From NCBI GenBank assembly GCA_949152475.1, contig OX424560.1, positions 40,059,719 through 40,123,718 on the forward strand: a stretch of DNA of 64,000 nt. The letters run 5' to 3'. The notes below the pieces were generated by a model. That model had not been told where the DNA came from, did not search any database, and was given only the letters and a program-made list of their open reading frames with translations. This document shows positions 717-33,700 of the stretch, one piece after another (positions within the stretch are counted from its first letter, which is position 1; every line of letters starts with the position of its first letter). Made by a program: the position numbers and the translations under genes. The DNA is from Terebella lapidaria (Eukaryota > Annelida > Polychaeta > Terebellida > Terebellidae).

Positions 717-1745
717 GACCTGGTTACCTCCTCCCCCCCATGCCCTGGTTGCCATGGATACTGACCTGGTTACCCCCATGCCCTGGTTGCCATGGATACT
801 GACCTGGTTACTCCCATGTCCTGGTTGCTATGGATAATGACCTGGTTACCCCAACACCCTGGTTGCCAAGGATACTGCCCTGTTACCCCATGCCCTGGTT
901 GCTATGGATAATGACCTGATTACCCCCCATACCCTGGTTGCCATGGATACTGACCTGGTTACCCCCATGCCCTGGTTGCTATGGATGCTGACCTGGTCAC
1001 CCCATGCCATGGATACTGACTTGGTTACCCCATACCCTGGTTGCCAAGGATACTGACCTGGTTACCCCCATACCCTGGTTGCCAAGGATACTGATCTGGT
1101 TACCCCCATGCCCTGGTTGCTATGGATACTGACCTGGTCACCCCATGCCATGGTTGCCATGGATACTGACTTGGTTACCCCATACCCTGGTTGCCATGGA
1201 TACTGACCTGGTTACCCCATGCCCTGGTTGCTATGGATACTGCCCTGGTCACCCCATGCCATGGATACTGACTTGGTTACCCCCATACCCTGGTTGCCAA
1301 GGATACTGACCTGGTCACCCCATGCTCTGGTTGCCATGGATACTAGCCTGGTCACCCCATGCTCTGGTTGCCATGGATACTAGCCTGGTCACCCCATGCC
1401 CTAGCTGCCATGGATACTGACCTGGTTACCCCCATGCCCTAGCTGCCATGGATACTGACCTGGTTACCCCCATGCCCTGTATGCTATGAATAATGATCTG
1501 ATTACCCCACATACCTCCTGGTTTCCAAGGATACTGACCTGGTCACTCCATGCCCTGGTTGCCATGGATACGGACCTGGTTACCCCCATACCCAGGTTGC
1601 CAAGGATACTGACCTGGATACCCCCATGCCCTGGTTGCTATGGATATGCACGTGTTCATCCTATGCCCTCGTTGCCATGGATACTGATCTGGTTACCCCC
1701 ATGCCCTGGTTGCCATGGATACTGACCTGGTTACCCCCCATGCCG
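717..1745 (-). repeat. 38-bp minisatellite made of the exon 10 end plus its splice donor
   Basis: About 27 tandem units of roughly 38 bp (plus strand: ctggttacccccatgccc then tggttgccatggatactgac), with single-base variants and a few shortened units. Read on the gene strand each unit is the last ~18 nt of exon 10 (ending GGTAACCAG) followed by 20 nt of intron starting GTCAGT. The genuine donor at 1726/1727 is the first unit, and the array runs downstream into the intron. Most units repeat CAG|GTCAGT or a one-base variant. Each unit also holds GTTGCCATGGATAC, one mismatch from an RFX X-box palindrome. Confidence 0.95.
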
Positions 1746-1825
1746 TGACAGGACACCATGCCGACTTTCTCCCCGGCCTTCCGTCCCATGCTGTCCAGGC
1801 ACTGCCCCGTCTCCTTGTTGCGAAT
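1727..1825 (-). CDS. GALNT1/13: GALNT exon 10: first part of ricin-type lectin domain
   Basis: 99 nt, phase 0 at both ends. The acceptor is gcacacag|ATT and the donor AACCAG|GTCAGT. It encodes [20 protein letters not shown] then [13 protein letters not shown], the alpha repeat of the beta-trefoil lectin domain with the CLD motif. The next lectin exon (beginning VFSY in human) is not in the window. The last ~18 nt and the donor are the template of the 38-bp minisatellite that follows. Without splicing the frame reads 21 more codons into the array before a stop. Confidence 0.95.
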
Positions 1826-4800
1826 CTGTGTGCAAGGTGCGAAGTACAATGAATTATTGCGAGTATTTTTTTGAACGATTACATGGAATTTCAACAGGTC
1901 TTAAACGAAGTTTTATCAGGAACATACTTGAACCGCTAAACAAACTTTAATAGGTATGTAAACACGATATAAATCGTCTACTTTCCATATAAGATATAAG
2001 TTTGACAATTCAAGCACCCAACATATTTCCCGTCATATTTTGCCCATCTGTCCTCACCTCCCCGAGGGAGTAGTAGTCTAGGGGCATCTGTGACTCCGGA
2101 TAAATGTTCTCCAGATACCAGCGGAAACTTTTACATTTTAACCGCTCGCGTAGAGCTGTTCTCTCTGAGATATCACCGTAGTCGGTCTGCTTTACACCTG
2201 CAGGATTGAAAATTGCAATAATTATTTTATAACAACAATAAAATCACTGGGCATTAAGGCAAGTATGACATAGAGTCAAAAAGTTTTGACAATTCAACAA
2301 TTTCAGATTGCAAAGTTATTAATATCATGTCAAGACTATGTTTATGCTTTGATATTACAACACAGATATTTTCAATATACACGCGCGATGGGAAGTTACA
2401 ATGACAGAAATATGATATATTCACACATTCTAACTATGAAGCATGGGGAAAAACACCAAACCCGATCAACAGAGAAAATCAAAGCGCAAAACATCAAGAA
2501 GCCGTAACAAAATCATGAGAATATGAAAAGAAAATCACCATGTGAATAATAAAGGTTGTGCTACATGCAAAACTGCTGTGAAAATACCCAGAAGCTACTC
2601 AAAAATGTCTGTCACATTTATTTAAGTTATATTTGTGAACCATGATAATACTGCAGGTAAAGTTAATTTGGCGTCAACCAATACTACCTTATAACTGGGA
2701 GGGATAGAATACTTGATGACATGCTTCAGTATATCAGTAACATTGCACAAAACATGCATAACAGTATATCATGTTAATAAACCATTACAAATGTTAGAAC
2801 TGTTCAGTGACATCTAAATAACAATACAGAACCTTCCTCGTTCTGTGTCGATCAAAACAACCCTGAGATCTGAATGATAAACAATGGCAGATTCCATCAA
2901 TGTCTTCTGAATTCACACCCGTCAGACCTCTCTTTCATTTCTACGAGGTTCCATTGATCTGATAGTCACCAATAGAACGATTCAATCAATTTGGAAAAAC
3001 ACAATATTCAACAGACTACATACACTAAAATTTGACTATTAGTTCACATTGTGACAGGTATATGCTAATCTTTCTTCTCTAACGATTGTCAACTGTGAAC
3101 TGTGACATTCTTCTTGCTAGTGTTTTTGCTAATGTTTTAATTGTTATAGTCCAGACCCAATCCAGTCCAAGAAACAGATAAAGCATACTTCGGGCAAGTT
3201 TAAGTCTTTCTGATGAACACATTTAGTGCACGTACATGTTTTTGTGATCTGGAATCCTACTGCCTGTTGTATGTACAGGTGAAGTTCGGTCATGAAAGTT
3301 AGCAATATGAACAAAAAACTGAAGGCTGCCTTTATTTATACAATGTTATACAGCAGCTAAAGTTTAGCCTGCAAAAAATGTTAGAATTTGAAAAAGAAGC
3401 ATTAAAACGACAAAACCCTGTAACCATGGCAACTCAACATGAGACGAGAGTAAAAACCCAGTAACCATGGTAACCAATGCTACATTATCCCTGCCCCCAG
3501 CCTGTAGCCATGGCAACTGTTGCTAGGCGGACCTGGGCTGATCTTGTAGTAGAACTGTTTGTAGTCGTCCATCCAGACCTCGACCGTCCGCAGCGTGTTG
3601 TGGTTCAGGATCTTGACGACGCCTCCGGGCCACGAGTACGGCGACACCTTGCGGAAAACATGGCCAACGCGGGAACACGTCGCAATCAGGATCTGGCCCC
3701 CGCACATCCAGACCTGCCAACACGGGAGGGAGGGGTCAGTGGGGGGTCACATGGTATCCATGGCAACCTCTCAGTGAGTTTGGTGGCTCGGCTCCATGGG
3801 TCGGCAGCGTGGGTCGCTGGAAGTAAGGAGTCAGACTTGCCACCAGGTAGCAGAGTTGTGTTCTTGGGTAAGAGATTATCAATCACCGGATATCAAACAA
3901 ATGGGATAAATGTGAAAAGCTTCTGATTAGATGATGCACAGGATTCAGAATACTACAGGGGACAGCTAAATGTGATACAGATTCTATATAGATCTATGGG
4001 TCATGAGTATGTAACTAAAATGAATCATTACCGATAACTACAATACAGATGACTTTATGTACAATTTTTTTTCCGGGATGATCAATTTTGGGTATTGATT
4101 GACTCAAAGTGTTTAATCTTAATGTTTATTATTACCGTACTGTACATGATATCATGGATATTTGAATCACTTCCTCAGATATTTCAAGACAATGAATTGT
4201 TTCATGAGAGTCATCATTCAAGATCTAACAATTTGGTAAGTGATAATATTCCTGATTGGAACACATACATTCACAGTGCCATAACATGCAACATTCATAA
4301 AACACATTCAGGATACAGTAAAATATCACAGGTTTGAAAATGCTCAGTCATGCAAATGTCTTTCATCAGTTATCTACGAGAAGAATTTAGACTAAACTAT
4401 TCAGTTTTTTGTGCCATTTTATCAATTTGATAATTGAAAATCTCCAACATGACGCCTGAGCATTTCCATGAAGCATACACTGTACATGTGATAGTCAAAT
4501 GGAGAACTGAAACATAACATGCATAGTGTCGAGTGGAACAAACAGTGCGGAGGTAGATTCTGACTATCAAACTGGACGGAAGGACGGAAGGACTTCGTGC
4601 ACATGAGCGGTGATTTCTGGGGCCGCCGCGCCTGTACCTGGGTTGATCTTATAGTAGAAGTCTCGCCAGTGATCCATCCAGACCTCGGCCAGGCGCGCGT
4701 TGTTGTGGTTGATGATTTTACCCGTACCGCCGGGGAAGGTGTACGGCGTGGCCTTGCGGAACACGTGGCCCACGTGAGAGCATGTTATGATGAGTACCGA

Positions 4801-7800
4801 GCCACCACACATCCAGATCTGCCACCAGGGGGAGCCACAAGATAGACAACAGGGCGGTTAGGTAGACAGTGAGGACCGAGGTCAGAAGTGTACTGACTCA
4901 AGTTTATGTTAGGTGATGAAATGGGGTGCTTATATGTACAACAGTTAAAAGATAAAAGACAAGCCCATCATGTCCACTGCTGTTACATATGGTTGAAGAA
5001 TATTACAGTCAACTTGTGTGACCCAATATCTAGCATGATGATTTTCGCTGTAAAATTAAAATTTAAATGTACACAAAAGTCAGTTAGCGTGTGAAAAACC
5101 ATGAATTTTTCCATAATTGCTTGTACTGGAAAAATGCTTATTCGAACATAAATGTAAAACTTGTGTAGCTGTATAGAAATTGGACTTTTTAACATCTACA
5201 AGGAGAAGGAAAACTTCATCCACACAACTTCAGTTATTTTCAACCAAGCAATGCGACTACAAAATTACCCTGAAGGACATTTCGAGGTTTTCTCCGCCCC
5301 AGATATCCATGCCGCTATCATATGAACCAATCTCATAAAAGTAGTCCCGGTCGATAGCCAACAGTCCGCCCGCCATGGTCGGAGATCTGCGGTAGGGAGA
5401 CAGCTACGGTTATCACAAGCTCTAGTTCTGTAAGATTTATAGACAAAGTGAGTAAGTGATGTAATTGTACACAGATATATGTTTAGAAGGTATTTTTCTC
5501 CACACCTGAGAGGCAGACTCCTGTCCCCGCCCCGTCTCTCCACCTCTCTCTGAGGCACAGGGTACCAGCGAAAGTTGAGTTTCCAGTTGAAGCCGCCCCA
5601 CGTCATGTCGGAGCCCGTGATGTACTCAAACGTCTCGTCGCTGATCACGTCGATTATTGGACACACCACGGACGTACTGCAGGAGCGTAGCAGAAATATT
5701 AGCATTCTTTCATCCATCCGGAATAATATGTAGGTTGGCTTTGCGGGGTTTTTGCACAAACACATCAAATATTGAGTTTCAGTTACCAATCAACTGCTGT
5801 GTAGTACATCTGCATGTACACATGTCTCGCATTAGAAACAAGTAAGGGTATCATCATTACGGTAAAGGTTACAGATATTGTAATCACCGAAATACATGAA
5901 TAAATGCAGACAGTGGATGTCCCTGGGACTGCGACATACCGATCCTTGTGTATCTCATACAGAAGTGGTTCCAGCCAGCCCTGAGTACACTCACAGTGGG
6001 CGTCTAGGAAAGTTATCACTTTGCCCTTCGCTCTCGCCGCACCTGCAAGTCAAAACTATACCTTGTGCAACTCATATCTGAGTGATTTTGAGGACTTGTA
6101 TGTGTAGTATGTGTACATTGATTCCAATATTATTAACACACTGGGTAGATGAAAATTGCTCTCCAAGTGTTTGGTAAGTGATGTATTCTGAAATAAATGT
6201 CCGAAATGCCGAGGAATTCTCACTGTCTGTTACTATGGGAACCATGGTGAGGTAAATTGCTTATTTAGTCAAGAATCAACGAAGCACCGGCATACATAGA
6301 GAAATATGTCCACCTGTACTGTTACTATGGCGACACAAATGGGTGGGAAGCCTGGAGTTTGGAGCAGATTTATAAATCCCTGACTTGCCTCTGAGACTGG
6401 GGACGAGACGAGCGATGGCTGGGACAAGAGTCGGGAGACGCGAGTCATGGATCCTGATTACTGTCAGGGCAAATTAGCGTCCCAGCGCGGGGATAATTGA
6501 CAAGTTGTGCGGACATGTGACGGACGGAAATTGCTACCGGCAACCAAACCAAGCCCCACCCCCACCCAGCATTCCTTGAAACCATGGCTCCTCCATCGAA
6601 TCTCCTAAAATAACCATTTTTTCCCCACCCATGTACCAACTCCCCTCCGTCCTCCAACAAGTCCAACTCCTGGACTAAACTTGGGTTTCCACAGTAGACC
6701 TCCTGCACCAGATTTACTGCCCACCACTCCAACCCCCCCCCCCCCCCCCACCCTCGCCCATATCCATGACACCCGGACACTGGCCCTGTCCTCTAATGTG
6801 ATTGGTGGAGATTAGATTTGTTACTGCGACAAAGACACAGCCAGATGACTGTCAGCTTCAATGCCATGATACTGGAGGAATTACATTGGATCGCCGAGAA
6901 ACACTTCGACCTGAGCAAGGAAATCAGAGAAAGGCTCAGACAAATCAAATAAATATTTTGACAAACAGGATTAAATGTTTTCTATGCGGCCAGTGCATAC
7001 CACACAAACTATGCCAAGTTCTGGTAGGAAGCTGCAAAGTTATCTTTTTAGGTGCATGGAAGAATCCATAATCGCTAGAACTTTATGCAAGAGTAATTTT
7101 TATCCAATGATTCAACAATCAATGCTACTAGTATGACAAATCATGACAAGACATCCCCAGAACTTGAAGACAAACAAAACCTCAGCACAAGAGCTTTGCT
7201 GACATGACAAGCAGCCCGATCTACGACAGCCACTGACGAACTCGCACTGTCAGAGGGGCAGACTTTGTGTGACGTGTTGTGACAGGGGAGGACGTTACCG
7301 TGGTGACACGTCACATATATACGTCCCTGGCCTGACAGTTACCGTGGTGACACGTCACATGTATATGTCCCTGGCTTGACAGTTACCGATAGTTACCATG
7401 GTGATATGTCTTTCTCTCTCTGACAGGGGACTTGGGCAGTAAATACCGGAAAACAATGAACATGCACCCAGCTTTACCAGGGAACCATATGTACAGGCCA
7501 ACCCTTCTCGGTGTACATACATGTAGGAGGCATGAAAAAGATCCCAAATACAAGCCACGAACAAAGAATTATTGATAAACTTGCCTCTTTAAAGAGTTAG
7601 ATGCCACAAATGCCATGTTTGAATGGGTAACCATGGCTACAGACCTCGTAATCTGGCGCGTATGAGTCCCGTTCTGTCGCCCATACGCTCAACGTGAATC
7701 GGGACAGGAAGCTGAGCAGCGTAGTCTTCCAACTCCTTCCCCAGGAAATCTGTCAGGAATACATGTATACAGAACTCTATCACGGCATGTTGAACTGAAT

Positions 7801-10800
7801 GTGTGAGATCTAAAGTTACATGTAGATGTAGATAAGTTAGACTATTCTTTATGGTTATCATCATTATGGTGTCTAAATAAAAGTAAGTTTTAGAATTAAA
7901 CTATTACAATTCCATGTACATGTCTTTACTTTAACTAATCATGCCACTCAAAGGACCACTGAACATATATCAAGAGTCGCTTTACCGCGCTCGCTGGCGT
8001 CGTCCACAAGAATGATTTCCTCCAGTAGGTGGCGTGGCGAGCGGTTGATGATGCTGTGAATTGTGCGCAGAAGGGTCGACCAAGCCTCGTTGTGGAACAC
8101 GATAACGATACTCGTCGTGGGCAGGATCTCAGTCGGGTACGACTTCCGCTTGCACCTGTATTGTACAAGTGTACAGGGTGTGGGTTACTTGTGGGGTGGC
8201 TAACACAGGAACATCAGCTATAGTCATGGCATTGACAGACTTGAAGATGACGAAGGCTTTGCAAAATGCACTATGATGGACTGGATAGTGGGGAGAATTC
8301 GTGTAGACCAATCAGACAGATATGAAGAAGTATTGCACTGAATCATTTTGTTAATTCCCAAATTAACAATATTGATATGTTTCGTAGTCACATTTTGCTA
8401 TACATGTACATCTTACAACTGGTATAAATTTGTGTGATAACAATATCACATTCCTTTAATTTTCTTGACAGCGACACATTATGTGTATTGTCTGCTGTAT
8501 CAGCGTAAAACCATCGATCACACATACCCTGACATTTAGATGTGTTTTGTACCACACTCTTCCTCTACAGACTCCAAACATCCCAGAGCTCACACCAGGT
8601 TTATCACGCCTACCACAAAACGATTATCCCATTCACACACAACACCACAATATGCATAATGGCTTTACGGTGGTGACTAACAGGAGTTTAGGATATTACA
8701 AGCAGGGAACCACCCGCCCTGCTGAGTAAACCCTTTGGAACTTGAACAAACACATTTTTGGCTGCCATGACAACGAGCCAAAACTTCACCCTGGGGAGAA
8801 TCCTCCATTGTTTAGTACCTTGCATCAAGCTAATCCAGGCTTTGGTTGGGTTTTACACCCTCCAAGCAAACATCGTAAATTTTGATCACGCTATGAGCGG
8901 CAGGGGCAGTTAGTTCGTGACATCGCCCCGGTGTCGGACGGACAGCGGCACACGCCGGACAGTACACACAGCGGCGAGGTCTCAGGAGCTCAGGCAAGAT
9001 TTATGTCTGGAAGAAGGCATCTGGACAGAGCCATGGGCAGCCGCACAGACTTCGGGGAAAGGGCAGGGAACGTTTCTATCGCAAACTCACGTACGAGGAT
9101 TTATCTTGTGTCATTGTGATTTATATTGGAGAAAATTACCGGTAATGCTAAATTTTAAAAACAAAAACATGCAATGCTACATGTATTCAAGTATTAAATC
9201 AGAAGTATTCTATCCAGATTAGCCTTTGCATGTTTGTCCCTCATTTTGAGACAAAAAAAAAAGTTGCATAGAGTGTGTTAAAAGCTACAAGGGGAGACAC
9301 TTTATGAAGTCAGCCTTTTACTCTACACAGACGCGAGGATCAGGCCTGTGGCTGTGGACGTTTTTCTCGTGGTGTGAAGAGCCATCAAGTGAGAGTAATT
9401 GACTGCACCAGCCAATCACCGGCTTTTTATCATTCCATGTCGCCCCAGGCACGATTCCGACCAAACTCCACACTTGTAACTCTACAAGTCACTTTTGACG
9501 CAGACGTGATCAGAGCAAAACGACTGAATCAATACACAGCCCAGAAATGTCACCTTCACTTCGTCACGTTAAACGCCGACAAAACTCTAAAACTGACAGT
9601 CCGGATTAAATCCTGAAACTGCACGCGACCAACTAAAAGACCAGAGAAAAATCGTTCCCCATTTAGCTTTGGGATCTTGTCGGTTTTTAGTTCTCCCCTT
9701 CAAATGGTTGTAGCTAACACGAGAGGCTCGAATGTGCCAGCAACTGGTGCAGTTTTATTGAACAAGATGGTATTTAGCGAACATGAAATACCACCTGTTC
9801 TGACAGTTTGTATCACCTTTATTGATTTAACAATTACTTTCGCCATTATTATTGACTTCGCTTATTGATCAAAGTGTTTCAGAAGCAGGGATAATTGAAT
9901 ATGTCAAGCATTTTATGTTTAGTGATTAAGATATCAATTTCAAATGTCTGACTTGTGACTCGATAAATACACCACCAACAAGATACTGCTGGTAATGAAT
10001 ACAGCTCAGGGAAACAGATGTTGATCATTGACAACATCACCTTACCGGTAGCAAGCAGACACCCTTTGGTGTGCTCTAGTTGAACATAACACAGTGACCA
10101 GTTGCAACATTATTCCTGCGTCCATGCATTACTAGTTGTTTTTATCCCCAAGATGCTGCGATATAACCTTGCACTATTTATCTTGTACCCTTTCAGACAA
10201 CATCACATTTATAATGACCTATTACATGACATGACAGTGTTACACTCTAATACCCACCTTTAGTGATGGGAGTCGGTTTGGAATTCATTATCGATCATCG
10301 GTTTGATGAAAGTAACCGATGATCGATTAATAATCGGTTTAGATAATGTCAATCAGTATTTACTAATATGAATATATTATGTAGTTTAGTTCACGCTCTC
10401 TACCATCTTTTTTCCAGTTAACTAATCGTATCCACCCAGTGCTCACAACCAAACACTTCGCACTCCATTAAGTTCGATCCAAATCATAACGTTCGCCCTT
10501 CGTTAAGTACATGCGTGGATCCAAATAATTGATGGTACGAAATGCACAGCACCGGGCAGATGGGTACGAAATAGATCGGAAAGCAACTACCGTACTATAG
10601 CGCATTGATGAAAATCGAGCTCTAAATATACAATCGAGTGCTTGAATTTTCATAGCAAACAACAGACTTTCGACTAGAGTCGATGATCGTCCCATCACTA
10701 CCCACCTTCCTCCCACCTCCAATTAAACTAATCCATGACCAAATTGTCTGTACACAGACGATACCTTACCATTAAATTGATTACATCATCTCCTCATATT

Positions 10801-13800
10801 TAATTCAGCAAAAATAATCCATCTGTTTACAACAAATAATATGTTCAACATCGGACAATTAATTCCCACCACATATACCCCCGATACTGAACACCTCCAC
10901 AACACCCCCCCCCCTCACCCCCCCCCCCCTCACCCCCCCCCCCCCCCTCACCCCGACCCATCCCATAGTCTCATAAACTGATAAATGGACCAAACTCGTG
11001 TCCTATCCATATATTGCAGTGTGGCCCAATTTTTCGGTGCATTGAACATGTTTCACTGAGAATCGAGAACAGTTTTCTGTGGACCCCAGAAGACTCCCGG
11101 CTTTTACGAGATCGCCGCCTTGGGACCAACGCCAAGTAGAATGTGTTCAGTTTCCATGAAATCCAATCATCTTTCTGAAATGGAGTTCTTTTTTTCCCAA
11201 TTTGATCATAATTTGCCGTTGATGTGGTTTCTGCTATGACCAGGGGAACCAGCGCCTGGGTATCTCGAGGATTCGATGATAGCTTTTGTTAGATCCAAAT
11301 GGTCACGTCTCCAGCTTTCAGTTAGGTGTCAAAAGTACATGTAGATTCAAGAAGATAATTTGATGAGCCTTTTCCAGGTTTTCTGATATGGGAGATTTGT
11401 TCTGAACAAAGTAGATATGAGGGAATTGTCAACAGTAAATCTCATTTTGTAAAGTGTTGTTCTTAAATATGTTTAAAGGAATTACATGCAAAGCTCCAGT
11501 TTTTATGTCTCAATTTTCTTTACTTAGTTGTCGCATCATCTTTCGTACTTAGTTGTGGCAATCTAAGATGTGTACTCAAACAACATCCCAGAGAGATGGA
11601 TTCAGGAAACCACACACTGACAAACCTGGCAACAACATAAAGTCAATAGGTACAAATCACATGAACTAGGCCGCTCGGTTTGACAATGTCACAGCAGCCC
11701 GGCACCATCATTGCCGCTATTTTACTCGTCCATTATACAATCAAGCAATTAGTTGGAAACAAAGCGAGACGGCCAATACTGCCGACATACCCGCAATCAG
11801 GCATGGCTTTCATCCTCCTGGAAGACATGATATCGCCCATGGTAACAGATCGTCATGGCAACCCTAGACAATACACACAAAGACGATATCACCGGGTGAT
11901 TGTTCCCAAGCGTACAACACAGCCATTGTACTGCACCAGACCACAATAAAGTACATGCTGACAAAATAAGGACCGAATTCAATTTGACTGAAAGTGAGAC
12001 TAAGTCTGCCAATTATTGTACGGCTATCTCGGGTTGTGTCTTTTGTTTTTGCCGAGGCTAGAGATGCTGTGTAACAGCGTAGGAGACAAGAGACGCCCAA
12101 TAATTCAGCAGCTCGTTGATCATCGAGATGACGTGGACTAGCCGCAAATTTACGCAACGATCTCCTCAGAGATTCCCAGAGAAAAATCTACAATGTAATT
12201 TATCGGCACAATACATCGCCTAGAAACGTGGAATCTTGGCTGCTCCTTCTTGGCCTGAAGGAGACTTGACCAGACAGATACTGGACGGGCAAGTGGTTAA
12301 AGTAGGGTAGTTTATATGTAAGAACGGGCACATAAAACTTACTCCTTGGAGAAAATGGTCTTAAGGGCAGTAGTAGTATTCGATTTCCATAAATTTCAAG
12401 AGAAAATCCAACCTTAATGTCAGTCTGGAGAAAAGAGAGCAGCGCAGGAATCCACTTCATTTTGCCGGGTTTCAGGTTCTTGTCTCGTCCAATCAGAACG
12501 TTCCCGGGAACAGACACAATTACTGTCTCCCCACGTCCAGGAACAACCACTCTCACTAACGAACATATAAATCCCAATCAGCCTATATTGATTCTCTCCT
12601 GTTCTTACTTTCACAAATGTTATGGAAAAACAAAACTTCTTCCCAAAGTTTTTCTTCAATGATAACACTCGCACAAGTGACCAGATACTTCTTCGGGTGC
12701 AACTATAATTGTTTCATCAGATAATTGTTTCATCAACATGTATTTCAAATGAGGGAGATTCCAGATTTCTGTTGTTCAAATGCTCCATCATACAATGTAA
12801 ATGACCATAATCATCATAAAACAGATGACACAGGTTTCTTGCACTGATGCTTGATTTGTACAGAATACCCTGTGTCCCCAGAACACCTGAAATCTGTCTC
12901 ACACTCAGGAAAAGTCAGTGCTCCACCATGAAGTAAAGGACGCAGCATCAGTGCGGCACAAGAATCTAAGGAGCACATTTGTGAGTGGAGAGTGAGCCAT
13001 GTTCCCGGAACTCTGCGCACTAACTAATGTTCTACATTCATCAAGCTCACTCACAAGGAGCCCCCTGACAAGTCGGCATCACGACCCGAGTCCGCGCGTT
13101 CTGTGCCGAACCTGGCTGTTATTGACGGAGACGTCACGAGAAAAACACACAAACTGCCGTGTAAATTTGTCATGTGCTCACAGGTGAAAGTCTTTAGTAC
13201 TCAGCTTGTCGTGTGAGAGAGGCACAACTAAATGGTGACTCTACCAGGGGCTGTTTGTAAAAACTCTGCGCTCATTAGATTTCAGTGTTTGTACAACTCA
13301 TGATCAGAATTACTGAGTCAGTTTATGCAATAGCAGAGTGGGTTCAAAAGCACTGCTCTATAAAAGTAAGTGAAATAAATTTCGTTCTCTATCTAGACTG
13401 ATTAGTACATTTTGTAAATTACTCTACAAGCTGTAAAACTCCTGCTGCTGATCCTGTTTATATGTCACAATAAATCCTCACACCCGAGTGTATTCCCAAA
13501 CATACTCGGCCGCCTGGATATGCTCCCGGAGATTAATGTGACAGGGGTTTTTATTCCGTGCTGGGAAATATTCACTTGTTTTATCCGTGTCTAAGACATA
13601 AACCGACAAATTTATGGAAGAAATGCGGCTGAGCCAAATTGGTTTCCAGATATCTTGTTTGGTTACTACTCCATGTATTCTGGGGTTAGCAACTTTGGAG
13701 ACAGGTGGCTATACCTGATAACACAGTAACCATGACAACCACTGGAGGCTGTTACCATGGTGACTATGGAGGTGGATTAGGGGCCGCCATAAACAAAACG

Positions 13801-16800
13801 AACAGGGTCAATAATGTCGACGGTGACACGCGGGGATGTGACAGGAATATTTACATTTAACAGATGTGTCTGTTTATGTTTCTGCCCAGGTCAACAAGAA
13901 GCTTCACCGAGTTTCTGTCGAGTGTTGACATTAAATCTCAGTGGGGTCTGATGGTGCTAATACGGTAATACAGTAATGGAAAAAAGTTCACAGAGAACTC
14001 TATTACCAAGTTTATTGTTCGTCATAATTCTGACCAGGGCACTGTGGGCAAATCATGAGGCGAAGTACATGTAGCTCACTAAAGCAAGGGTAAAATACAT
14101 TGAACTTCAGGAAGCAATGGAAATATTCCGCTGAAAAACTGTGAAAAATATGCAAAGTTAAATATTCAATCTTTTCCCAGAAAATGTATGATTTTGAAAA
14201 ACATTATTTAAGTAAGAATTTCAAAAGCTGCACCAAGCACAGAGCTCCTTTCAGATGTACGATATCAGCATCTAACATTTATCCCTGAATGTACATCAAC
14301 ATGCGCCTGGCTCAGTCAGTGCTGCTGATAACATCGTCTGTGTCTGTGGTCGGAACATGGGGCCTTTGGTGTGCTCTTTTATCATACAGCTTCAAACACA
14401 AAGTGTTAATTCTAATTGCATCAACTGGCTTTCAGAAGTGACTCCAGCTTTTGTGCGATAATCGGAGTCCAGACCTCTGTGGCTGACACCTCGATTCCAT
14501 TTATAAAAGGCTTTTGGTTCACACCGCGGTAAGTCACAAATCTCGTGAGAACCAATGGGCGTGAGTGGACACGACAATACTGGGGAATAGAAGGCTAGAA
14601 TACAAGTCTGTAGATGATTGGATAGAGTGGTCAGCACAATAATGGACATTCCACCTATTGTGTCCACCGCTGGCACTCACTGTCACCTTCTCAGTCTGTT
14701 ATCACTGCCCGGTGTCCGTGCTTAGGGTGACATCAGACAGAAGTAAGAAGCCTTTGCTATCAGTGCGGAGTGTCAAGCTGTCAATCGACCAATCAGCTGA
14801 TGACGAGAGCTGTCTCGCTGCCACACGCAAATACGTCGTCTGTCTGTCATCCGTCTGTCCATCACATGACTGGGGTTAGTCTTTGGCTTTTCAACATTAT
14901 GCCATGGATAAACACTTCAGAACATACCCTGGCTGTTAGTCGCTTTTTTGGCAATAATACATGTACTTCACACAATACACATAAATACGTTTTAGGTCTG
15001 ACATCAATTTCTAGCATATTTCTCACTGGTGCTATGAAATGTAACATTGTGCAGACACTTGCATCACGTAGCCCTCAAACAAGATTGAAATGTGTTTAAA
15101 ACTTGCTTGAGAGTATATAGATAAGTCTGATAGATCATCATTAATGCATGCCGTATGAGTGATAAGATCATTTTAATATTAATTCCACACCATCCATCAA
15201 CATTCTGTCCTGTTACGTCTGAAACACATTCAGAATTCCTCTGCCAAGTTTTTCACTTTACAATACAATCAAATATCGCGATTTAATATTGCATCACCAG
15301 TCGACTCTGTGATCGGTGTAGCAGAATGCGTTCTTCGTAAACTGTGAAGAAAACACATGGAACACACAGAATTGCAATATTTAGGAGAATTCCAGAGCAT
15401 CACAGACAATTATTAGTTGATGATGACCAACGGTTCAAAGCTCTGCCGATCCAGGCCGCTCTGTGATAGCCAGCAATAAAATAACAAATAAATTAGAAGC
15501 TCATATATCACGAGGCCGTCACCGTCACTCAACACGTTAGTACGGGAGCCGATGAATGGAGGTCCACGGGCAAGGTGCCATGAGGTCCGACTCGCGGGGA
15601 TATTGATGGGGCCAAGTTCTCAGTCCCAGCCTCCACTTTCATAAATATGAATGAGGGGAAAAACACCTCACACACAGGCGAGCGGTAAAACTCCCAGTAG
15701 TGTTACAGCTTGAACATAATGGCATAAAAGGCCACTTTAGACGGGGCGGCTCCTCGAGTTGATGCTGAATTGAAAACACCACAATAAGAGAAAACCAGGG
15801 AAACGAAGCGACCGATTTCGACTCCCATGGGGGGAAATTGTCAGGAGTTTTTGCCTCGGCACAAGTACAAAGGCAGAGGATGACAGTCCTGATGATATCC
15901 GTGGCGAAATGGGGCGAACATCCCTGGAGAGACCACGGGAGTGAGCGATATACATCACAGAGCAAACCAGCCTGATAGAGGCCTAGAAACACTAGTGCTG
16001 AGTAAATATCATACCCCTCCATGGAAATCTACAACAGCTAGGGTACTGGGAACAATATACATGATTCAACAGGATGGATCATGATGCTGTACTGTAATGG
16101 TATATGACAATAAAGCCAATACTCTATTATTTGCAACATTCCTGATTGTGAATGTCAAAAGCAAAATGCCTGAACCTCACAAACATACTTTCATCTTGAT
16201 CCTATGACTGCAGACAAACAAAATATTGTTTGAATAAAGTCCATTTCCAACCATTCTCCCGATAGACGCGATCGAGGGTCCGGCCTGTGGCTGTAGAAGT
16301 TTTTCTTCTGGTGTTAAGCGCCATCAAGAGATACTAACTGACCGCCCCAGCCAATCACCGGCTTTTTATCATTCCACGTCGCCCCAGGCACGATTCCGTC
16401 AAAACTCCACACTTGTAACTCTACAAGTCACTTTTGACACAGACATGATCAGAGCAAAACGACTGAATCAATACACAGCCCAGAAATGTCACCTTCACTT
16501 CGTCAAGTTGAACGCCGACAAAACCCTAAAATTGACAGTCCAGATCAAATCCGGAAACTGCATGCGACCAACTTAAAGACAAGAGAAAAATCGTTCCCCA
16601 TTTAGCTTTGGGATCTTGTTGGTTTTTAGTTCTCCCCTTCAAATGGTTGTAGCTAACACGAGAGGCTCTAACGGCCAGCAACTGGTGCAGTTTTATTGAA
16701 CAAGATGGTATTTAGCGAACATAAAATACCACCTGTTCTGACAGTTTGTATCACCTTTATTGATTTAACAATTACTTTCGCCATTATTATTGACTTCGCT

Positions 16801-19800
16801 TATTGATCAAAGTGTTTCAGAAGCAGGGATAATTGAATATGTCAAGCATTTTATGTTTAGTGATTAAGATATCAATTTCAAATGTCTGACTTGTGACTCG
16901 ATAAATACACCACCAACAAGATACTGCTTGGAATGAATACAGCTCAGGGAACCAGATGTTGATCATTGATAACATCACCTTAGCAAGCAGACACCCTTTG
17001 GTGTGCTCTAGTTGAACATAACACAGTGACCAGTTGCAACATTATTCCTGCGTCCATGCATTACTAGTTGTTTTTATCCCCAAGATGCTGCAATATAACC
17101 TTGCACTATTTATCTTGTACCCTTTCAGACAACATCACATTTATAACTAGACGCTTCCGGTCGCCTATGACCACTTGGGTGTATCCCCCGTAGCCCTATC
17201 ATCTCTGTTGCCCCAAATTTATCACTGTCAAGTGTGAAAAACTAGAGCAAGGGCTAAAAAAGATTACCAGAGAAATGTTAAATCTCAAGACACAACTGTT
17301 TTCTTTTCCCCACCAAAATTGCTGCACTGATTTTCCGAGGTTATTGAAGGTCGAATTCAAAATCACCACTGAAATCTCTTTATATGAATTTCCATTTCGA
17401 CATGTTTGATAAAATAACGAAAATACAGATAGATCAATCTTTTCACCTATTTATATTTCAACTCAGAATATTTTACAAACTTGGTTCCAAGTTGAAATTC
17501 AAAGTAAAATTTGACCAAAAATGCATTTCAAGATGACGAAATTGGAGCCAGATTGAACTTCTCACCATAAGTTATATTTCGACTCATAATACATGTATGT
17601 GCCAAACATGGTTTCAAGTTGAGATTCAAAGTAAAAGTTAATAAAAACTGCATTTCAAGATGACAAAATTGGAGCCAGATCAAACTTTTCGCCATGAGTT
17701 ATATTTCAACTCATAATATGTGCCAAACTTGGTATTAAGTTGAAATTCAATGTAAAAATTGACCAAAACTGCATTTCAAGATGACGAAATTGGAGCCAGA
17801 TAGAACTTTTCATCATAAGTTATATTTTAACTCATAATATGTGCCAAACTTGGTTTCAAGTTGAAATTCAAGCTAAAAGTTTACCAAAACTGCATTTCAA
17901 GATGAAGAAATTGGAGCCAGATCTAACTTTTCATCATAAGTTATATTTAAACTCATAATATGTGCCAAACTTGGTTTCAAGTTGAAATTCAAACTAAAAA
18001 TTGACCAAAACTTTATTTCAAGATGACGAAAATGGAGCCAGATCGAACTTTTCACCATAAGTTATATTTTAACTCATAATTTGTGCCAAACATGGTCTCA
18101 AGATGAAATTCAAAGTAAAAGTTGATCAATGTTTTCATAAAAAGCTATTGTGATCAATAATAGACTTAACTAGCAGAAAAATAATGTTAACTTATTTGGT
18201 CACAGCCATAAAATCTCTACTGGACAAAGCCTTCACCTTGTTGAGCCCAATAATAAATATTTCTTGTCTGAAAATCATCTTTCTGAAATGGGAGTTCTTT
18301 TTTTGCCAATTTGATCATAATTTGCCGTTGATGTGGTTTCTGCTATGAACAGGGGAACCAGCGCCTGGGTATCTCGAGGATTCGATGATAGCTTTTGTTA
18401 GATCCAAATGGTCACGTCTCCTACTTTCAGTTAGATGTCAAAAGTACACGTAGATTCAAGAAGATAATTTGATGAGCCTCTTCCAGGTTTTCTGATATTT
18501 TCCATGTACATGTATTATGATATTTTATTAGATTTGTTCTGAACAAAGTAGATGTGAGGGAATTGTCAACAGTAAATCTCATTTTGTAAAATGTTGTTCT
18601 TGAATATGTTCAAAGGAATTACATGCAAAGCTCCAGGTTTTATGTCTCAATTTTCGTTACATAGTTGTTGCAATCTAAGATGTGTGCTCAAACAACATCA
18701 ATCTGACAGTTTCTAGGTTCACCCCAGAGATGGATTCATGAGACCACACACTGATAAACCTATCTGTTTCCATGGCAATGACATGAAGTCATTAGGTACA
18801 AATCACATGAACTAGGCCGCTCGGTTTGACAATGTCACAGCAGCCCGACGCCATCATTGCCGCTATTTTACTCGTCCATTATACAATCAAGCAATTAAAG
18901 TGAGACGGCCGATACTGCCGACATACCCGCAATCAGGCACGGCTTTTATCCTCCATGGAGACACAATATCGCCCATGGTAACAGATCGTCATGGCAAACC
19001 TAGACAATACACACAAAGACGATATCACCGGGTGATTGTTCCCAAGCGTACAACACAGCCATGCTACTGCACCAGACCACACAAAGTACACGCTGACTCA
19101 ATGAGGGCAGAATTCAATTTGACTGAAAGCGAGACTAAGTCTACCAATTATTGCACGGCTATCTCGGGTTGTGTCTTGTTTTTGCCAAGGCTGCGTAGGA
19201 GACAAGAGATGCTATTAATTCGGCAGCTCGTTGATCATCGAGATGACGTGGACTGGCCGCAAATTTACGCAATGATCTCCTCAGAGATTCCCAGAGAAAA
19301 ATCTAATTTACCGGCACAATACATTGGCTGGAAACCTGGAATCTTGGCTGCTCCTTCTTGGCCTGAAGGAGACTTGACCAGACAAATACTGGACGGGCAA
19401 GTGGCTAAAGTAGGGTAGTTTATATGTAAGAACGGGCGCATAAAGCTTACTGCCTGGAGAAAATGGTCTTAAGGGCAGTAGAATTATTCGATTTCCATAA
19501 ATTTCACAAGAAAATCCAACCTTAATGTCAGTCTGGAGAAAAGAGAGCAACGCAGGATTCCACTTGATTTTGCCGGGTCTCAGGTTCTTGTCTCGTCCAA
19601 TCAGCATGATCAGAAAGTTCCCGGGAAAGGACACAATTACCATCTCCAGACGTCCAGGAACAACCACTCTCACTAACAAACATATAAATCCCAATCAGCC
19701 TATATTGATTCTCTCCTTTTCTCACTTTCGCAAATGTTATGAAAAAACTTCTTCCAAAAGTTTTTCTTCAATGATAAGTTCGCAAAAGTGACCAGATACT

Positions 19801-22800
19801 TCTTCGGGTGCAACTATAAATTGTTTCACATCCGAAATTTTTCAGGTCCTCAGATATACATGTGTTTCAAATGAGAGAGATTCTGGACATCTGCTCCATC
19901 ATACAATGTAAATGACCATAATCATCATGAAACAAATGGCACAGGTTTTTTACATTGATGCTTGATTTGTACAGAATACCCCGTGTCCCCAGAACATCTG
20001 AAATCTGTCTCACACTCAGAAAAAGTCAGTGCTCCACCATGAAGTAAAGGACGCAGCATCAGTACTCTAAGAGCACATTTGTCAGTGGAGAGTGAGCCAG
20101 ATGGAATGTTCCCGGAACACTGCACACCAACTAATGTTCTACATCCATCAAGCTCACTCACAAGGAGCCCCCTGACAGGTCGGCATCACGACCCGAGTCC
20201 GCGCGTTCTGTGCCGTAACCTGGCTGTTATTGACGAAGACGTCACGAGAAAAACACACAAACTGCCGTGTAAATTTGTCATGTGCTCACAGGTGAAAGTC
20301 TTTAGTACTCAGCTTGTCGTGTGAGAGAGGCACAACTAAATGGTGACTCTACCAGGGGCTGCTTGTAAAAACTCTGCGCTCATTAGATTTCAGTGTTTGT
20401 ACAACTCATGATCAGAATTACTGAGTCAGTTTATGCAATAGCAGAGTGGGTTCAAAAGCACTGCTCTATAAAAGTAAGTGAAACAAATTTCGTTCTCTAT
20501 CTAGACTGATTAGTACATTTTGTAAATCACTCTACAAGCTGTAAAACTCCTGCTGCTGATCCTGTTTATATGTCACAAAAAATCCTCACACCCGAGTGTA
20601 TTCCCAAACATACTCGGCCGCCTGGATATGCTCCCGGAGATTAATGTGACAGGGGTTTTTATCCCGTGCTGGGAAATATTCACTTGCTTTATCCGTGTCT
20701 AAGACATAAACCGACAAATTTATGGAAGAAATGCGGCTGAGCCAAATTGGTCTCCAGATATCTTGTTTGGTTACCATGGTTACTACTCCATGTATTCTGG
20801 GGTTAGCAACTTGGGAGACAGGTGGCTATACCTGATAACACAGTAACCATGACAACCACTGGAGGCTGTTACCATGGTGACTATGGAGGTGGATTAGGGG
20901 CCGCCATAAACAAAACGAACAGGGTTAATAATGTCGACGGTGACACGCGGGGATGTGACAGGAATATTTACATTTAACAGATGTGTCTGTTTATGTTTCT
21001 GCCCAGGTCAACAAGAAGCTTCACCGAGTTTCTGTCGAGTGTTGACATTAAATCTCAGTGGGTCTGATGGTGCTAATACGGTAATACAGTAATGGAAAAA
21101 AGTTCACAGAGAACTCTATTACCAAGTTTATCGTTTGTCATAATTCTGACCAGGGCACTGTGGGCAAATCATGAGGCGAAGTACATGTAGCTCACTAAAG
21201 CAAGGGTAAAATACATTGAACTTCAGGAAGCAATGGAAATATTCCGCTGAAAAACTGTGAAAAATATGCAAAGTTAAATATCCAATCTTTTCCCAGAAAA
21301 TGTATGATTTTGAAAAACATTATTTAAGTAAGAATTTCAAAAGCTGCACCAAGTTTAGAGCCAAGCACAGAGCTCCTTTCAGATGTACGATATCAGCATC
21401 TAACATTTATCCCTGAATGTACATCAACATGCGCCTGGCTCAGTCAGTGCTGCTGATAACATCGTCTGTGTCTGTTGTCGGAACATGGGGCCTTTGGTGT
21501 GCTCTTTGATCATACAGCTTCAAACACAAAGTGTTAATTCTAATTGCATCAACTGGCTTTCAGAAGTGACTCCAGCTTTTGTGCGATAATCGGAGTCCAG
21601 ACCTCTGTGGCTGACACCTCGATGCCATTTATAAAAGGCTTTTGGTTCACACCGCGGTGAGTCACAAATCTGGTGAGGACCAATGGGCGTGAGTGGACAC
21701 GACAATACTGGGGAATAGAAGGCTAGAATACAAGTCTGTAGATGATTGGATAGAGTGGTCAGCACAATAATGGACATTCCAGCTATTGTGTCCACCGCTG
21801 GCACTCGCTGTCACCTTCTCAGTCTGTTATCACTGCCCAGTGTCCGTGCTTAGGGTGACATCAGACAGAAGTAAGAAGCCTTTGCTATCAGTGCGGAGTG
21901 TCAAGCTGTCAATCGACCAATCAGCTGATGACGAGAGCTGTCTCGCAGCCACACGCAAATACGTCGTCTGTCTGTCATCCGTCTGTCTGTCATCCGTCTG
22001 TCCATCACATGACTGGGGTTAGTCTTTGGCTTTTCAACATTATGCCATGGATAAACACTTCAGAACATACCCTGGCTGTTAGTCGCTTTTTTGGCAATAA
22101 TACATGTACTTCACACAATACACATAAATACGTTTTAGGTCTGACATCAATTTCTAGCATATTTCTCACTGGTGCTATGAAATGTAACATTGTGCAGACA
22201 CTTGCATCGCGTAGCCCTGAAACAAGATTGAAATGTGTTTAAAACTTGCTTGAGAGTAAATAGATAAGTCTGATAGATTATCATTAATGCATGCCGTATG
22301 AGTGATGAGATCATTTTAATATTAATTCCACACCATCCATCATCATTCTGTCCTGTTACGTCTGAAACACATTCAGAATTCCTCTGCCAAGTTTTTCACT
22401 TTACAATACAATCAAATATCGCGATTTAATATTGCATCACCAGTCGACTCTGTGATCGGTGTAACAGAATGCGTTCTTCGTAAACTGTGAAGAAAACACA
22501 TGGAACACACAGAATTGCAATATTTAGGAGAATTCCAGAGCATCACAGACAATTATTAGTTGATGATGACCAACGGTTCAAAGCTCTGCCGATCCAGGCC
22601 GCTCTGTGATAGCCGGCAATAAAATAACAAATAAATTGGAAGCTCATATATCACAAGGCCGTCACCGTCACTCAACACGTTAGTACGGGAGCCGATGAAT
22701 GGAGGTCCACGGGGCAAGGTGCCATGAGGTCCGACTCGCGGGGATATTGATGGGGCCAAGTTCTCAGTCCCAGCCTCCACTTTCATAAATATGAATGAGG

Positions 22801-24679
22801 GGAAAAACACCTCACACACAGGCGGGCAGTAAAACTCCCAGTAGTGTTACAGCTTGAACATAATGGCATAAAAGGCCACTTTAGACGGGGCGGCTCCTCG
22901 AGTTGATGCTGAATTGAAAACGCCACAATAAGAGAAAACCAGGGAAACGAAGCGACCGATTTCGACTCCCATGGGGGGAAATTGTCGGGAGTTTTTGCCC
23001 CGGCACAAGTACAAAGTCAGAGGATGACAGTCCGGATGATATCCGTGGCGAAATGGGGCGAACATCCCTGGAGAGACCACGGGAGAGAGCGATATACATC
23101 ACAGAGCAAACCAGCCTGATAGAGGCCTAGAAACACTAGTGCTGAGTAAATATCATACCCCTCCATGGAAATCTACAACAGCTAGGGTACTGGGAACAAT
23201 ATACATGATTCAACAGGATGGATCATGATGCTGTACTGTAATGGTATTATGACAATAAAGCCAATACTCTATTATTTGCAACATTCCTGATTGTGAATGT
23301 CAAAAGCAAAATGCCTGAACCTCACAAACATACTTTCATCTTGATCCTATGACTGCAGACAGACAAAATATTGTTTGAACTAGACGTCAAGGCCTAAAGA
23401 TGCCTTGGAGGCATTTCGGTGTGATGATTAATTTATAATATATACTAGATATCGACGAAAATGAAAAATGTCGACTCCGCAAAAAAATTTACCATTAAAA
23501 TTAGACATTTTTGTCTAGGGCGACGAGTCCGAAAATAACGTCCGTTTCGCTCTACAACGCACCGTTTCCGAGATATCGACGAAAACGAAAAATGCCGACT
23601 CGGCAAAAAAATTTCGGATCAAGGTCAAAGTTCATCCATAATAGCCCTTAGACATGTTTGTCTAGGGCGACGAGTCCGAAAATAACGTCCGTTTCGCTCT
23701 ACGACACACCGTTCCCGAGATATCGACGAAAACGAAAAATGCCGACTCGGCAAAAAAATTTGGGGTCAAGGTCAAAGTTCGTCCATAATACCCCTTAGAC
23801 ATGTTTGTCTAGGGCGACGAGGCCGAAAATAACGTCCGTTTCGCTCTACGACGCACCGTTCCCGAGATATCGACGAAAACGAAAAATGCCGACTCGGCAA
23901 AAAAATTTGGGGTCAAGGTCAAAGTTCATCCATGATTCCCCTTAGACATGTTTGTCTAGGGCGACGAGTCCGAAAATAACGTCCGTTTCGCTCTACGACG
24001 CACCGTTTCCGAGATATGCAGGATGCCTCAAGGATGACTCAGCAAAAAATCTAGGTCAAAGGTCGTTTGAAGTATCGATCCCAAAATCAATAGGGTTCTT
24101 CCCTGTTGATATATAAACCTCCGTGCAAAATTCTGCAACTATTGCCTGAATATTTTTCGAGTTATCGTCCGGAAACCAAGTTTCAAGATCAGCCTCGATT
24201 TCATCCTCAAGGACCTCACGGACCTCGGAGCCGGATCAAAAAAAATAATACACCCTAGAGATGTTTGTCTAGGGCGACGAGTCCGAAAATAACGTCCGTT
24301 TCGCTCTACGATGCACGGTTTCTGAGATATGCAGGAAGCCTCAAGGATGAATCAGCAAAAAATTATTTCGACCTCTAGGTCAAAGGTCGTTTGACGGATC
24401 GATCCCAAAATCAATAGGGTTCTTCCCTGGTGGCATATGAACCTCCATGCAGAGTTCTGCAACTATTGCGTAAATATTTTTCCAGTTATCGTCCGGAAAC
24501 CAAGTCTCAAAATTAGCCTTGATTTCATCCTCACGGACCTCACGAACCTCGGATCCGGCTCAAAAAGAATAGGGTTCTTCCACATATCATTTCTGACTTG
24601 TGGTGAAAATTTGACGAGGATCCGTCAAGGCAATCTGAAGTTATCGTCCGGAAACCAAAAGTGGCGAAAGAAGAAGAAG

Positions 24680-24715
<36 letters not shown>

Positions 24716-30700: not shown

Positions 30701-33700
30701 GAAAGGCCACTTTAGATGGGGCGGCTCCTCGAGTTGATGCTGAATTGAAAAGAAACGCCGCAATAAGAGAAACCCGGCTAAACAAAGCGACCAATTTTGA
30801 CTCTCGCAGGGGGCGGGGGGGGGGGGGGGGGGGATGGAATAGTCGGGAGTTTTTGCCCCGGCACAAGTACAAAGGCAGAGGATGACAGTCAGAATGATAC
30901 CCGAGGCGAAATGGGGCGAACATCCCTGGAGAGACCACGGGAGCGAGCGATATACATCACAGAGCAAACCAGACTGATAGAGGCCTAGAAACACTAGTGC
31001 TGAGTAAATATCATACCTCTCCATGGAAATATACAATAGCTAGTGAAACTCTGCCAACAGCTAGGGTACTGGGAACAACATAAGGGGATGGATCTGAACT
31101 GTACTATAATGGTATCAAGCCACTGCATGCCAGTTCAGGGAGTGCTGTGTACCGGTACTGTCATTAGCATCATGACCATTTACATGTATGCCTATTGACA
31201 AACAATATACATGTATTATTTGAACAGCAAAAAAAAAACAATTTCAGAATTCAAGATGCTGTGGGTACAGAATGAATACAAGTATCTCCCCACCCCCCTA
31301 CTCCCCTCACTCCCCCCATGCATCAAGCAAGTCCATCATCATGGTCATGAACAGGCCAACTAAATACCAATCTGAACCCTATTACAACAGCTGAACCCAC
31401 CATTTCACAAGTCACACCAGAATTACAGTTCAGTACTGTACGCAAGAATCTCGAGGACAAGTCCATCAAGTCAGGGCCGACGACACACAATCCCCGTCGG
31501 CAGCAGTGAAGACTTGTGCACCCAGCAACATTGCCGCATTCCGTCCCAGCGATTGAGCACATCGTAAATGACACCGACCATCCTTGTCACGACGCCTCAA
31601 GCTATGGACGAGACGCGCGACACTCGCCTTGTATATGTTCATAAATTTATGATCTATCCCCTGCCCTGTGTCATTCCGACGACGGAAATCATGACTTTGT
31701 GGTGGATCAGTACACAATCTTACGAATCACGGGACTAAGTAATTAATGTATGAAGCTAATGTAATGTGTATTTAATCACTCAGAAACTATGCTGGTGCCG
31801 GGACGGAGGTTCACTGGGTGGGTTTTTTATGTGTGGGAAATTCATTGAGATTAATGGACGATTATTGATGGAGAAAATATTTTATACGACATTTTATTGA
31901 CTTGGTTGCCTCTTAATCCTCACAATTTTCCTGGAGGAATAACACGGCGACGAATTTGCAGACTACCAGATATTGTGCTGTTGCTTAATAAGTCTTCCGG
32001 TGGCTTGATACTTGTGACAGAAAAGTTTTAATACATACTAGTATGATAATATTATCAATGAATATTCTTCTAGGTAGTGAAGGAAGTTGACATTGGAACA
32101 CAAGGTAAACAAACGACAACAAAGTCCTGATCAATATTGACTGTTGGAAGCTTGGGAGTAATTTACTTATCCACATGCCCAAGAAGGTTATTTGCATGAC
32201 TAAAACCTTCCTCACATAATCAGCCATCTCTTCCGTGTGCTCAACTCCGTCAAGTGCATAAATCGTCCCTCGATTATACACCAGCTCCACGCTAACGCCA
32301 TCTTCAAGGAATTTATGTATGCAATTTGGAAATTTGTGTTTTGAAATGCCATTAAAATGTGCAAGGGTGAAACTTGCATAGATCCAGTACTGGTTGAGGA
32401 TGTAAAAGGACAAAATTCACTTCATTTGAATTTTGACAATCATACTCGCATGCAAGCATTCACAAAACATTCACGAGTTTTGACCACCACAGTCACCCAT
32501 ACATGTGTTTTGACTTACGCGTCCATCCGTACATCGTTGAGACTGCGGTTGACGGATATCATGTCACTTGCCATTAAATTGAACTGGTTGATCTTGAACT
32601 TTTCTTTCATTTCCGTCTTCTGAGAGTCGGGAATTACGACGGGTTTTCCCAGCTCACCGGGCCCCTGTGGTGCCTGAGGCTTCAACACTGGAAGAAGGAA
32701 ACACAAATCTTTGTTAACATGATAACCATGGCAACATCCAACAAATTTCCTTATTCAACATCATATATATGAACAAAATGTAGCAGTATTGACATTTACA
32801 GAAAAAATTTAGAAAAATATTGAACATGATCAACACATGCAAAATTAGTAATGTTAGATTTCTCAATCTCATATGAAACATGTTTGCTTTGTGTATGGAA
32901 CTCAATTCTATACAGGATCCTTTCTGTAGAATACTGCAACTCAAACAAGTAAAGTTCCACGATACCAGTACAATGAAATAAAAAGTTCTTGTCAAATCGA
33001 ACGAAGGAAACCTTGTCCAATGCTGTACACCTGGTGAATGCCCACAGAGAGCTAGCTCTGCCTTCTGCTCATGTACAAGGAGTTCCCTCAGCATGGTCAA
33101 GATGCTGTACCAGTTTTACTTCAACCCCTGTATGTATCACTATCTGACTATGGTCATGCACCTCCAGTACAACTTCAAAACTTGTCGATGTCACCAATCT
33201 AATCTTGTCAGTTTACAAACCAGTTCAGACTGTACAACATGTAAGTGGCTTCCCGGTTTCCGTGACAACGACATCCAGGTGATATTGTACACTGTGTTGT
33301 GGGGTGGGAGTCTGGGGGAAGGGAGGGTTTCAAAAAGTGGCCAGATTTTTTACCCTCATCAATGTCGGTGTCAAACGGGGCAGAAACACCTACGGTTGAT
33401 TGTTGTCGCTCGGTCGCTTCTGAAAGATCATTGCTGAATCATTGATGACATCGCGGTAAAAGTATCAACCACGGCGAGAGAAACACCGTACTTCGATAGT
33501 GATACTGTGAGTGTATACAGGTAATAAACATTGCTTTCACACCTATATAGTGGAATAGTATGTGAGATAAACATAATGATAGCAAAGTGTGACATCTGAC
33601 TCCAGAGTTTGGAGTGAATGAATTTTCCAAGAAACAGCGCCATGTTTTCTGCTGTGTTAATTGTCGAGTGCCGAGAAATCAGTGTTTCCGGATTCCCCAC

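Follow-up and report, generated by a model that had tools for sequence, protein, structure and literature searches.

Drosophila PGANT5, the closest fly orthologue of GalNAc-T1, is made as two splice forms, 5A and 5B (cited as UniProt Q6WV17-1 and -2), that differ in residues 398-457 (PMC12776162, preprint, 24 December 2025). The two forms have different kinetics and tested effects on acceptor preference; on charged mucin peptides, the difference is attributed mainly to Asp419 versus Lys419. PGANT5A, not PGANT5B, partially rescues salivary granules (PMC12776162). The same preprint contrasts PGANT5 with GalNAc-T1, which it treats as having no such isoforms, and explains 5A as an adaptation to the salivary mucins of the fly. 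Here we describe a comparable arrangement in 64,000 nucleotides (nt) of DNA from Terebella lapidaria (GenBank assembly GCA_949152475.1, contig OX424560.1, positions 40,059,719 to 40,123,718 of the forward strand), hereafter called the window, with positions counted from its first letter. The minus strand of the window carries part of one GALNT1/13-type gene, in which all mapped splice sites are GT-AG. Two of its exons, 8B (4638..4818), a GALNT1-like version of the lid exon, and 8A (3533..3713), a divergent version, probably form a tandem-duplicated, mutually exclusive pair that would give this enzyme two variants of its lid.

The likeness to PGANT5 extends to the exact stretch of protein. Ser420 of PGANT5 pairs with Ala349 of GalNAc-T1 (PMC12776162), which is exon position 23 here, and PGANT5 residues 398-457 therefore correspond to positions 1-60 of the lid exon in the window. 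The alternative region covers the same 60 residues of a GALNT1 orthologue in both cases, comprising the catalytic flexible loop together with helix I-turn-helix II, and in both one version is GALNT1-like (5B and 8B) and the other divergent (5A and 8A). The chemistry of the swap differs. The fly pair switches charge between Asp419 and Lys419, whereas 8A and 8B both carry Lys at this position, as does GalNAc-T1; we take the charge switch to be particular to the fly pair and not typical of the kind. Position 60 is Thr in PGANT5A and Pro in PGANT5B, 8A and 8B. PGANT5 is presented as a pair of splice forms in the main text of PMC12776162, in which the word "exon" is absent and no fly exon layout is given. 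Moreover, the constitutive exons of the window gene are identical to GalNAc-T1 (chain 8v9q_A) at 259 of 352 residues, while the identity of PGANT5 to GalNAc-T1 is about 57% (PMC12776162), which argues that the window gene is distinct from fly Pgant5 and comes from another animal.

Exon swapping is known more widely among these enzymes and in other genes. A survey from 2022 annotated GALNT13, Pgant5 and gly-5 as an orthologous set with tandem duplicated exon substitution events (PMC9741552). These events involve the same gene group as the window pair and tandem substituted exons, in a vertebrate, an arthropod and a nematode; the relevant sections of the survey do not identify the duplicated exon in GALNT13 or gly-5. 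Predicted ligand-binding residues inside such swapped regions were mostly kept (80.6%; PMC9741552), which agrees with the pattern in 8A and 8B. In Drosophila pgant9A and pgant9B an exon swap alters acceptor preference (PMC6115407); like the window pair this is an exon swap in a GALNT, but the part exchanged is a stretch of about 30 residues in the lectin alpha repeat, whereas the window pair would exchange the catalytic lid. In human genes, tandem homologous exons have been described that throw the reading frame off when both are included, with decay as the expected outcome (PMC5740500). The window pair shares this arrangement; the human cases concern other genes, and "GALNT" is absent from the main text of that paper.

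These systems also bear on a preliminary description of the locus, made from the DNA letters alone. It had named alternative splicing in worm gly-5 and fly pgant9, and gly-5 is indeed listed with tandem exon substitution (PMC9741552), while the pgant9 case is a swap in the lectin domain (PMC6115407). The novelty that it implied for a lid swap in the GALNT1/13 group has to be withdrawn, as PGANT5A/5B is a lid swap with kinetic and rescue data (PMC12776162) and GALNT13, Pgant5 and gly-5 are listed in the survey (PMC9741552). Among the titles and abstract beginnings listed in the open-licence full-text literature, none pointed to a swapped lid exon in a GALNT1/13 gene of a chordate, and the titles and abstract beginnings on amphioxus together with GALNT held nothing on a lid-exon swap either. 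In human GALNT13, an exon named Ex10b reportedly lies in the lectin domain (Festari, 2017).

Both lid exons are exactly 181 nt long, begin in phase 0 and end in phase 1, and have intact AG and GT splice sites, with an intron of 924 nt (3714..4637) between them. Re-extraction from the window returned their coordinates, splice dinucleotides, phases and translations as first described. Their proteins are identical at 39 of 60 residues; the initial count of about 21 differences is correct, but the denominator is 60 whole codons and not 61. At the DNA level 127 of 181 positions are identical and 54 differ, of which 13 fall at first, 14 at second and 27 at third codon positions. With one exon as the tblastn query against the window, the other is recovered over all 60 residues (E = 6e-29, 65% identity), and all remaining matches listed for both exons have at most 18.1 bits, which excludes chance resemblance. 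Among these matches there was no third copy of the lid exon in the window. Compared with the GalNAc-T1 chain 1xhb_A, 8B is identical at 45 of 60 residues and 8A at 35 of 60. As previously stated, both exons keep the metal-binding His, at GalNAc-T2 position 359, and two Cys. The best reading of these sequences is a tandem-duplicated exon pair by which a GALNT1/13-group enzyme would exchange its catalytic flexible loop and the helices that come after it.

Other searches around the pair were negative. After a recent duplication the flanking introns should still resemble each other, but in blastn up to E = 1 they matched only themselves, apart from stretches of 12-22 bases. A pattern search for relatives of 8A in viral contigs gave seven stretches, none of which was confirmed, and an Rfam search gave no matches. 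A 150-codon open frame lies antisense to exon 8A on the plus strand (3474-3926) and is probably mechanical.

The reading frame permits only one of the two exons per full protein. The preliminary description held that using both or neither breaks the frame, and the stops are now located, both of them in exon 9 (2058..2197). When both exons are skipped, exon 9 is read as GTG TAA, its second codon being a stop at 2194-2192; when both are included, a TGA arises at 2175-2173; with 8A alone or 8B alone there is no stop. Nonsense-mediated decay usually follows a 50-nt rule, and these stops lie 134 nt (skipping) and 115 nt (double inclusion) before the end of exon 9, so decay would be expected. We therefore propose a model in which one of 8B or 8A would be used per productive mRNA, while skipping or joint use would lead to a premature stop in exon 9 and probably to removal of the transcript by nonsense-mediated decay. 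Mutually exclusive use, and with it the transcription of 8A, is what we infer from this arrangement.

The lid exon encodes the active-site lid (numbers are those of GalNAc-T2, in whose full-length chains residue 342 aligns with the first position of the exon). It spans the Mn ligand His359, Phe361 and the flexible loop 362-373, followed by helices. Exon 8A keeps His359, Phe361, Arg362, Lys363 and Tyr367. From 8B to 8A, the lid changes by Ala364Val, Thr365Ser, Thr368Ser, Phe369Trp and Thr373Val, and Gly374Val and Ile377Leu follow just after it. The net charge of the lid is +2 in both exons, and the change is mainly hydrophobic or aromatic. Differences in the lid and the following helix had been pointed out from the start, and the lid changes, Phe to Trp included, stand; the lid is not enriched in them, however, as 5 of its 12 positions differ versus 16 of the 48 elsewhere (hypergeometric P = 0.41), and it is the whole exon that has diverged.

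In GalNAc-T2, the loop switches between an open and a closed state in concert with Trp331, and residues 365, 373 and 377 are among the named contacts to the acceptor peptide (PMC4432651). Exon 8A differs from 8B at all three of these contacts. In the proposed model both proteins would share the donor-binding core (DXH, the Trp331 equivalent, His359, Phe361, Arg362 and Tyr367), and the swapped part would be the rest of the lid and helix I-turn-helix II. Use of 8B would give a GALNT1-type lid, and use of 8A a lid with changes at 364, 365, 368, 369 and 373, plus 374 and 377, which should alter the choice of acceptor peptides and the closing of the lid.

The divergent lid has a partial counterpart in another member of the family. 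Trp at 369 is also present in the PGANT9 chains 6e4q/6e4r, and at positions 365, 369, 373 and 377 8A has the PGANT9 residue at all four and 8B at none. Over the 19 differing positions that can be aligned with PGANT9, in an alignment gapped at 374, 8A matches at 6 and 8B at 3, a likeness to the PGANT9 lid that is suggestive only. Judging from their two lectin versions, chains 6e4q and 6e4r would be the two fly splice forms of PMC6115407; the entries are named only polypeptide N-acetylgalactosaminyltransferase 9. Expression of either PGANT9 splice form in fly cells increases O-glycosylation (PMC6115407), and Trp at 369 is thus compatible with activity. It is conceivable, if doubtful, that one gene here makes two enzymes of different sub-family character, the 8B form having a GALNT1-type lid and the 8A form an acceptor lid of the PGANT9 type reached by convergence. 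The acceptor class would then be set by the choice of exon instead of the choice of gene, and the lid exon of the GALNT1 group would, fly PGANT5 included, have been independently duplicated at least twice. If true, the lid exon would be a hot spot for evolving specificity by splicing.

The pair carries the mark of past purifying selection. Pairwise codon maximum likelihood (ML) between 8A and 8B gave an omega of 0.072 and rejected both omega 0.5 (2dlnL, twice the difference in log-likelihood, 19.9; p = 8e-6) and omega 1 (2dlnL 37.4). The NG86 method gave dN 0.26, dS 1.11 and an omega near 0.24; we put the gap between 0.07 and 0.24 down to near-saturated synonymous sites. A copy that had been neutral since the duplication would be expected to bring the mean omega to about 0.5 or more, so the rejection of 0.5 indicates that 8A does not resemble a long-decaying relic. 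This matters for an alternative that we consider quite improbable, in which 8A is a poison or relic exon that is rarely spliced and gives no functional enzyme, its inclusion beside 8B merely lowering the mRNA level through decay. Joint inclusion of the two exons does shift the frame into a stop, which is a form that a poison exon could take, and at the residues common to GalNAc-T1 and T2 the departures number 10 of 39 in 8A versus 7 of 39 in 8B. On the other hand, 8A has kept His359, Phe361, Arg362, Tyr367 and both splice sites. When all third-position divergence was placed on a neutral 8A branch, only 1, 0 and 1 of 2000 simulated copies kept 39 identities under three transition rates, and 11 to 14% were without a stop; this extreme case is thereby excluded.

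Several results weigh against a functional, exclusively used 8A, and some of them lend weight to the poison or relic exon. The 5' splice site of 8A (CAG|GTCCGC) is weak, matching 6 of 9 consensus positions, although that of 8B is equally weak and the eight other mapped exons range from 5 to 8. With half of the divergence in the neutral simulation, 412 of 2000 runs kept at least 39 identities and 27% were without a stop; since neutral runs often match what is observed, identity and an open frame are by themselves weak evidence. The ML test is a stronger argument than the simulations, and points to long-term constraint on both copies, though not to present use: its omega is a mean over both branches, from 60 codons with near-saturated synonymous divergence, and cannot exclude a recent loss of 8A use. 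Intron base pairing of the kind provided by docking and selector sites, which could enforce exclusion, did not exceed randomised sequence in any of four comparisons, in which 28, 32, 33 and 31 of 40 randomised pairs equalled or beat the observed value (Markov-sampled sequences, simplified stacking energies).

Two further causes of exclusion were considered. Steric exclusion is unlikely because the 924-nt intron is long for crowding, and incompatible U12 and U2 sites were not seen by eye, all mapped sites being GT-AG. With neither steric crowding nor outstanding intron pairing, exclusion of 8A and 8B from one another, if it occurs, would most simply come from a regulated choice of exon together with decay of the wrong products, a class on record for human genes (PMC5740500).

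A different question is when the duplication took place. The pair might descend from an exon duplication in early bilaterians that fly Pgant5 also inherited, as worm gly-5 perhaps did, and that was lost or has gone unrecognised in vertebrate GALNT1. This would be compatible with a mutually exclusive lid pair, and we regard it as unlikely. The gene group and the 60-residue span are the same in the fly, 8A and 8B are less alike (39 of 60) than 8B and the solved GalNAc-T1 (45 of 60), and position 24 is Ser in 8A and PGANT5A and Thr in 8B, PGANT5B and GalNAc-T1. Common ancestry was also found for 7 of 42 human-fly events in the survey, which nevertheless holds most such coincidences to be convergent and, in the sections concerned, does not say which applies to GALNT13 (PMC9741552). 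At the nine PGANT5 residues named in the text of PMC12776162, by contrast, 8A has the 5A residue in two cases and the 5B residue in three. The two agreements with 5A are Ser24 and Ser59, of which Ser59 is also found in GalNAc-T1, and none of Asp22, Lys23, Ala33, Leu37, Ala40, Met58 and Thr60 is shared by 8A. In addition, 8A and 8B have residues 350, 375, 379 and 398 in common against GalNAc-T1, T2 and PGANT9, which is the pattern expected after a later duplication or gene conversion, though these could be ancestral. The four common residues fit a duplication inside the window gene and not the capture of a foreign exon. The comparison with the fly leans, weakly, towards independent duplications in the window gene and in fly Pgant5; nine fly residues are too few to decide.

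The rest of the gene is consistent with its assignment to this group. Numbered in the style of the preliminary description, and all on the minus strand, the other mapped exons are exon 2 (32519..32687), which aligns with GalNAc-T1; exon 3 (7986..8155), the start of the GT-A catalytic domain; exon 4 (7645..7749); exon 5 (5940..6042), which carries the metal-binding DXH motif as DAH; exon 6 (5506..5676); the constitutive exon 7 (5269..5386), which carries WGGEN; and exon 10 (1727..1825), the first lectin-domain exon. We take the Trp of WGGEN to be the equivalent of GalNAc-T2 Trp331. Exons 2-7, 8A or 8B, 9 and 10 join into a single open frame of 418 amino acids in each of the two nine-exon combinations. 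The features of the GALNT group are thus present, that is, a GT-A catalytic domain with DXH and WGGEN and then the start of a ricin-type lectin domain. The 8B isoform matches the Pfam families Glycos_transf_2 (E 3.7e-36) and Glyco_transf_7C (E 2.6e-07), and 36 of its residues match Ricin_B_lectin at 28.0 bits, just below the cut-off of 29, in a gene truncated by the end of the window. The same families are matched by the 8A isoform. Against solved structures, the joined 8A isoform matches two GalNAc-T1 chains at 715 and 658 bits, and the other 14 chains among the matches listed reach at most 482 bits, the next enzyme at that score being a chain named polypeptide N-acetylgalactosaminyltransferase 9. 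GalNAc-T13 chains do not occur among these matches, and the assignment therefore covers T1 and T13 together as the GALNT1/13 group.

The ends of the gene were not recovered in the window. Motif patterns, the only kind of query used there, located no exons 5' of exon 2. Two short lectin-repeat probes, fragments taken from alignments with solved GalNAc-T chains, gave exon 10 and otherwise only matches at E of at least 0.17, with no lectin exons after exon 10. Exon 10 borders a 38-bp minisatellite of about 27 copies (735-1744) that takes in the last 18 nt of the exon and repeats its 5' splice site; the minus strand carries 12 exact copies of CAGGTCAGT, one of them the true exon 10 site. The downstream donor copies, if used, would extend exon 10, whose frame, read on, stays open for 21 codons before a stop. 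Between exons 2 and 3, the 24-kb intron contains a segment that is present three times (about 12200-31040) at spacings of about 7.1 and 7.8 kb, with repeat families D19 and D20 and similar open frames in the copies. Elsewhere in the window are a 121-bp tandem repeat of 5.7 copies (17431-18129) and three arrays of one 147-bp satellite (23501-24017, 57870-59453 and 61590-63174), with matches of 95, 96 and 98% within the arrays.

Lid swapping by splicing was already known in the GALNT1 group, and the window adds a case from a different gene, and from an animal other than the fly, in which the lid changes are of another chemical nature. We suggest that 8A and 8B offer a natural pair of lids with which to find out what lid residues determine acceptor preference. 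The duplication of the same 60-residue stretch in another animal, with different chemistry, would show a repeated way to tune mucin-type O-glycosylation.

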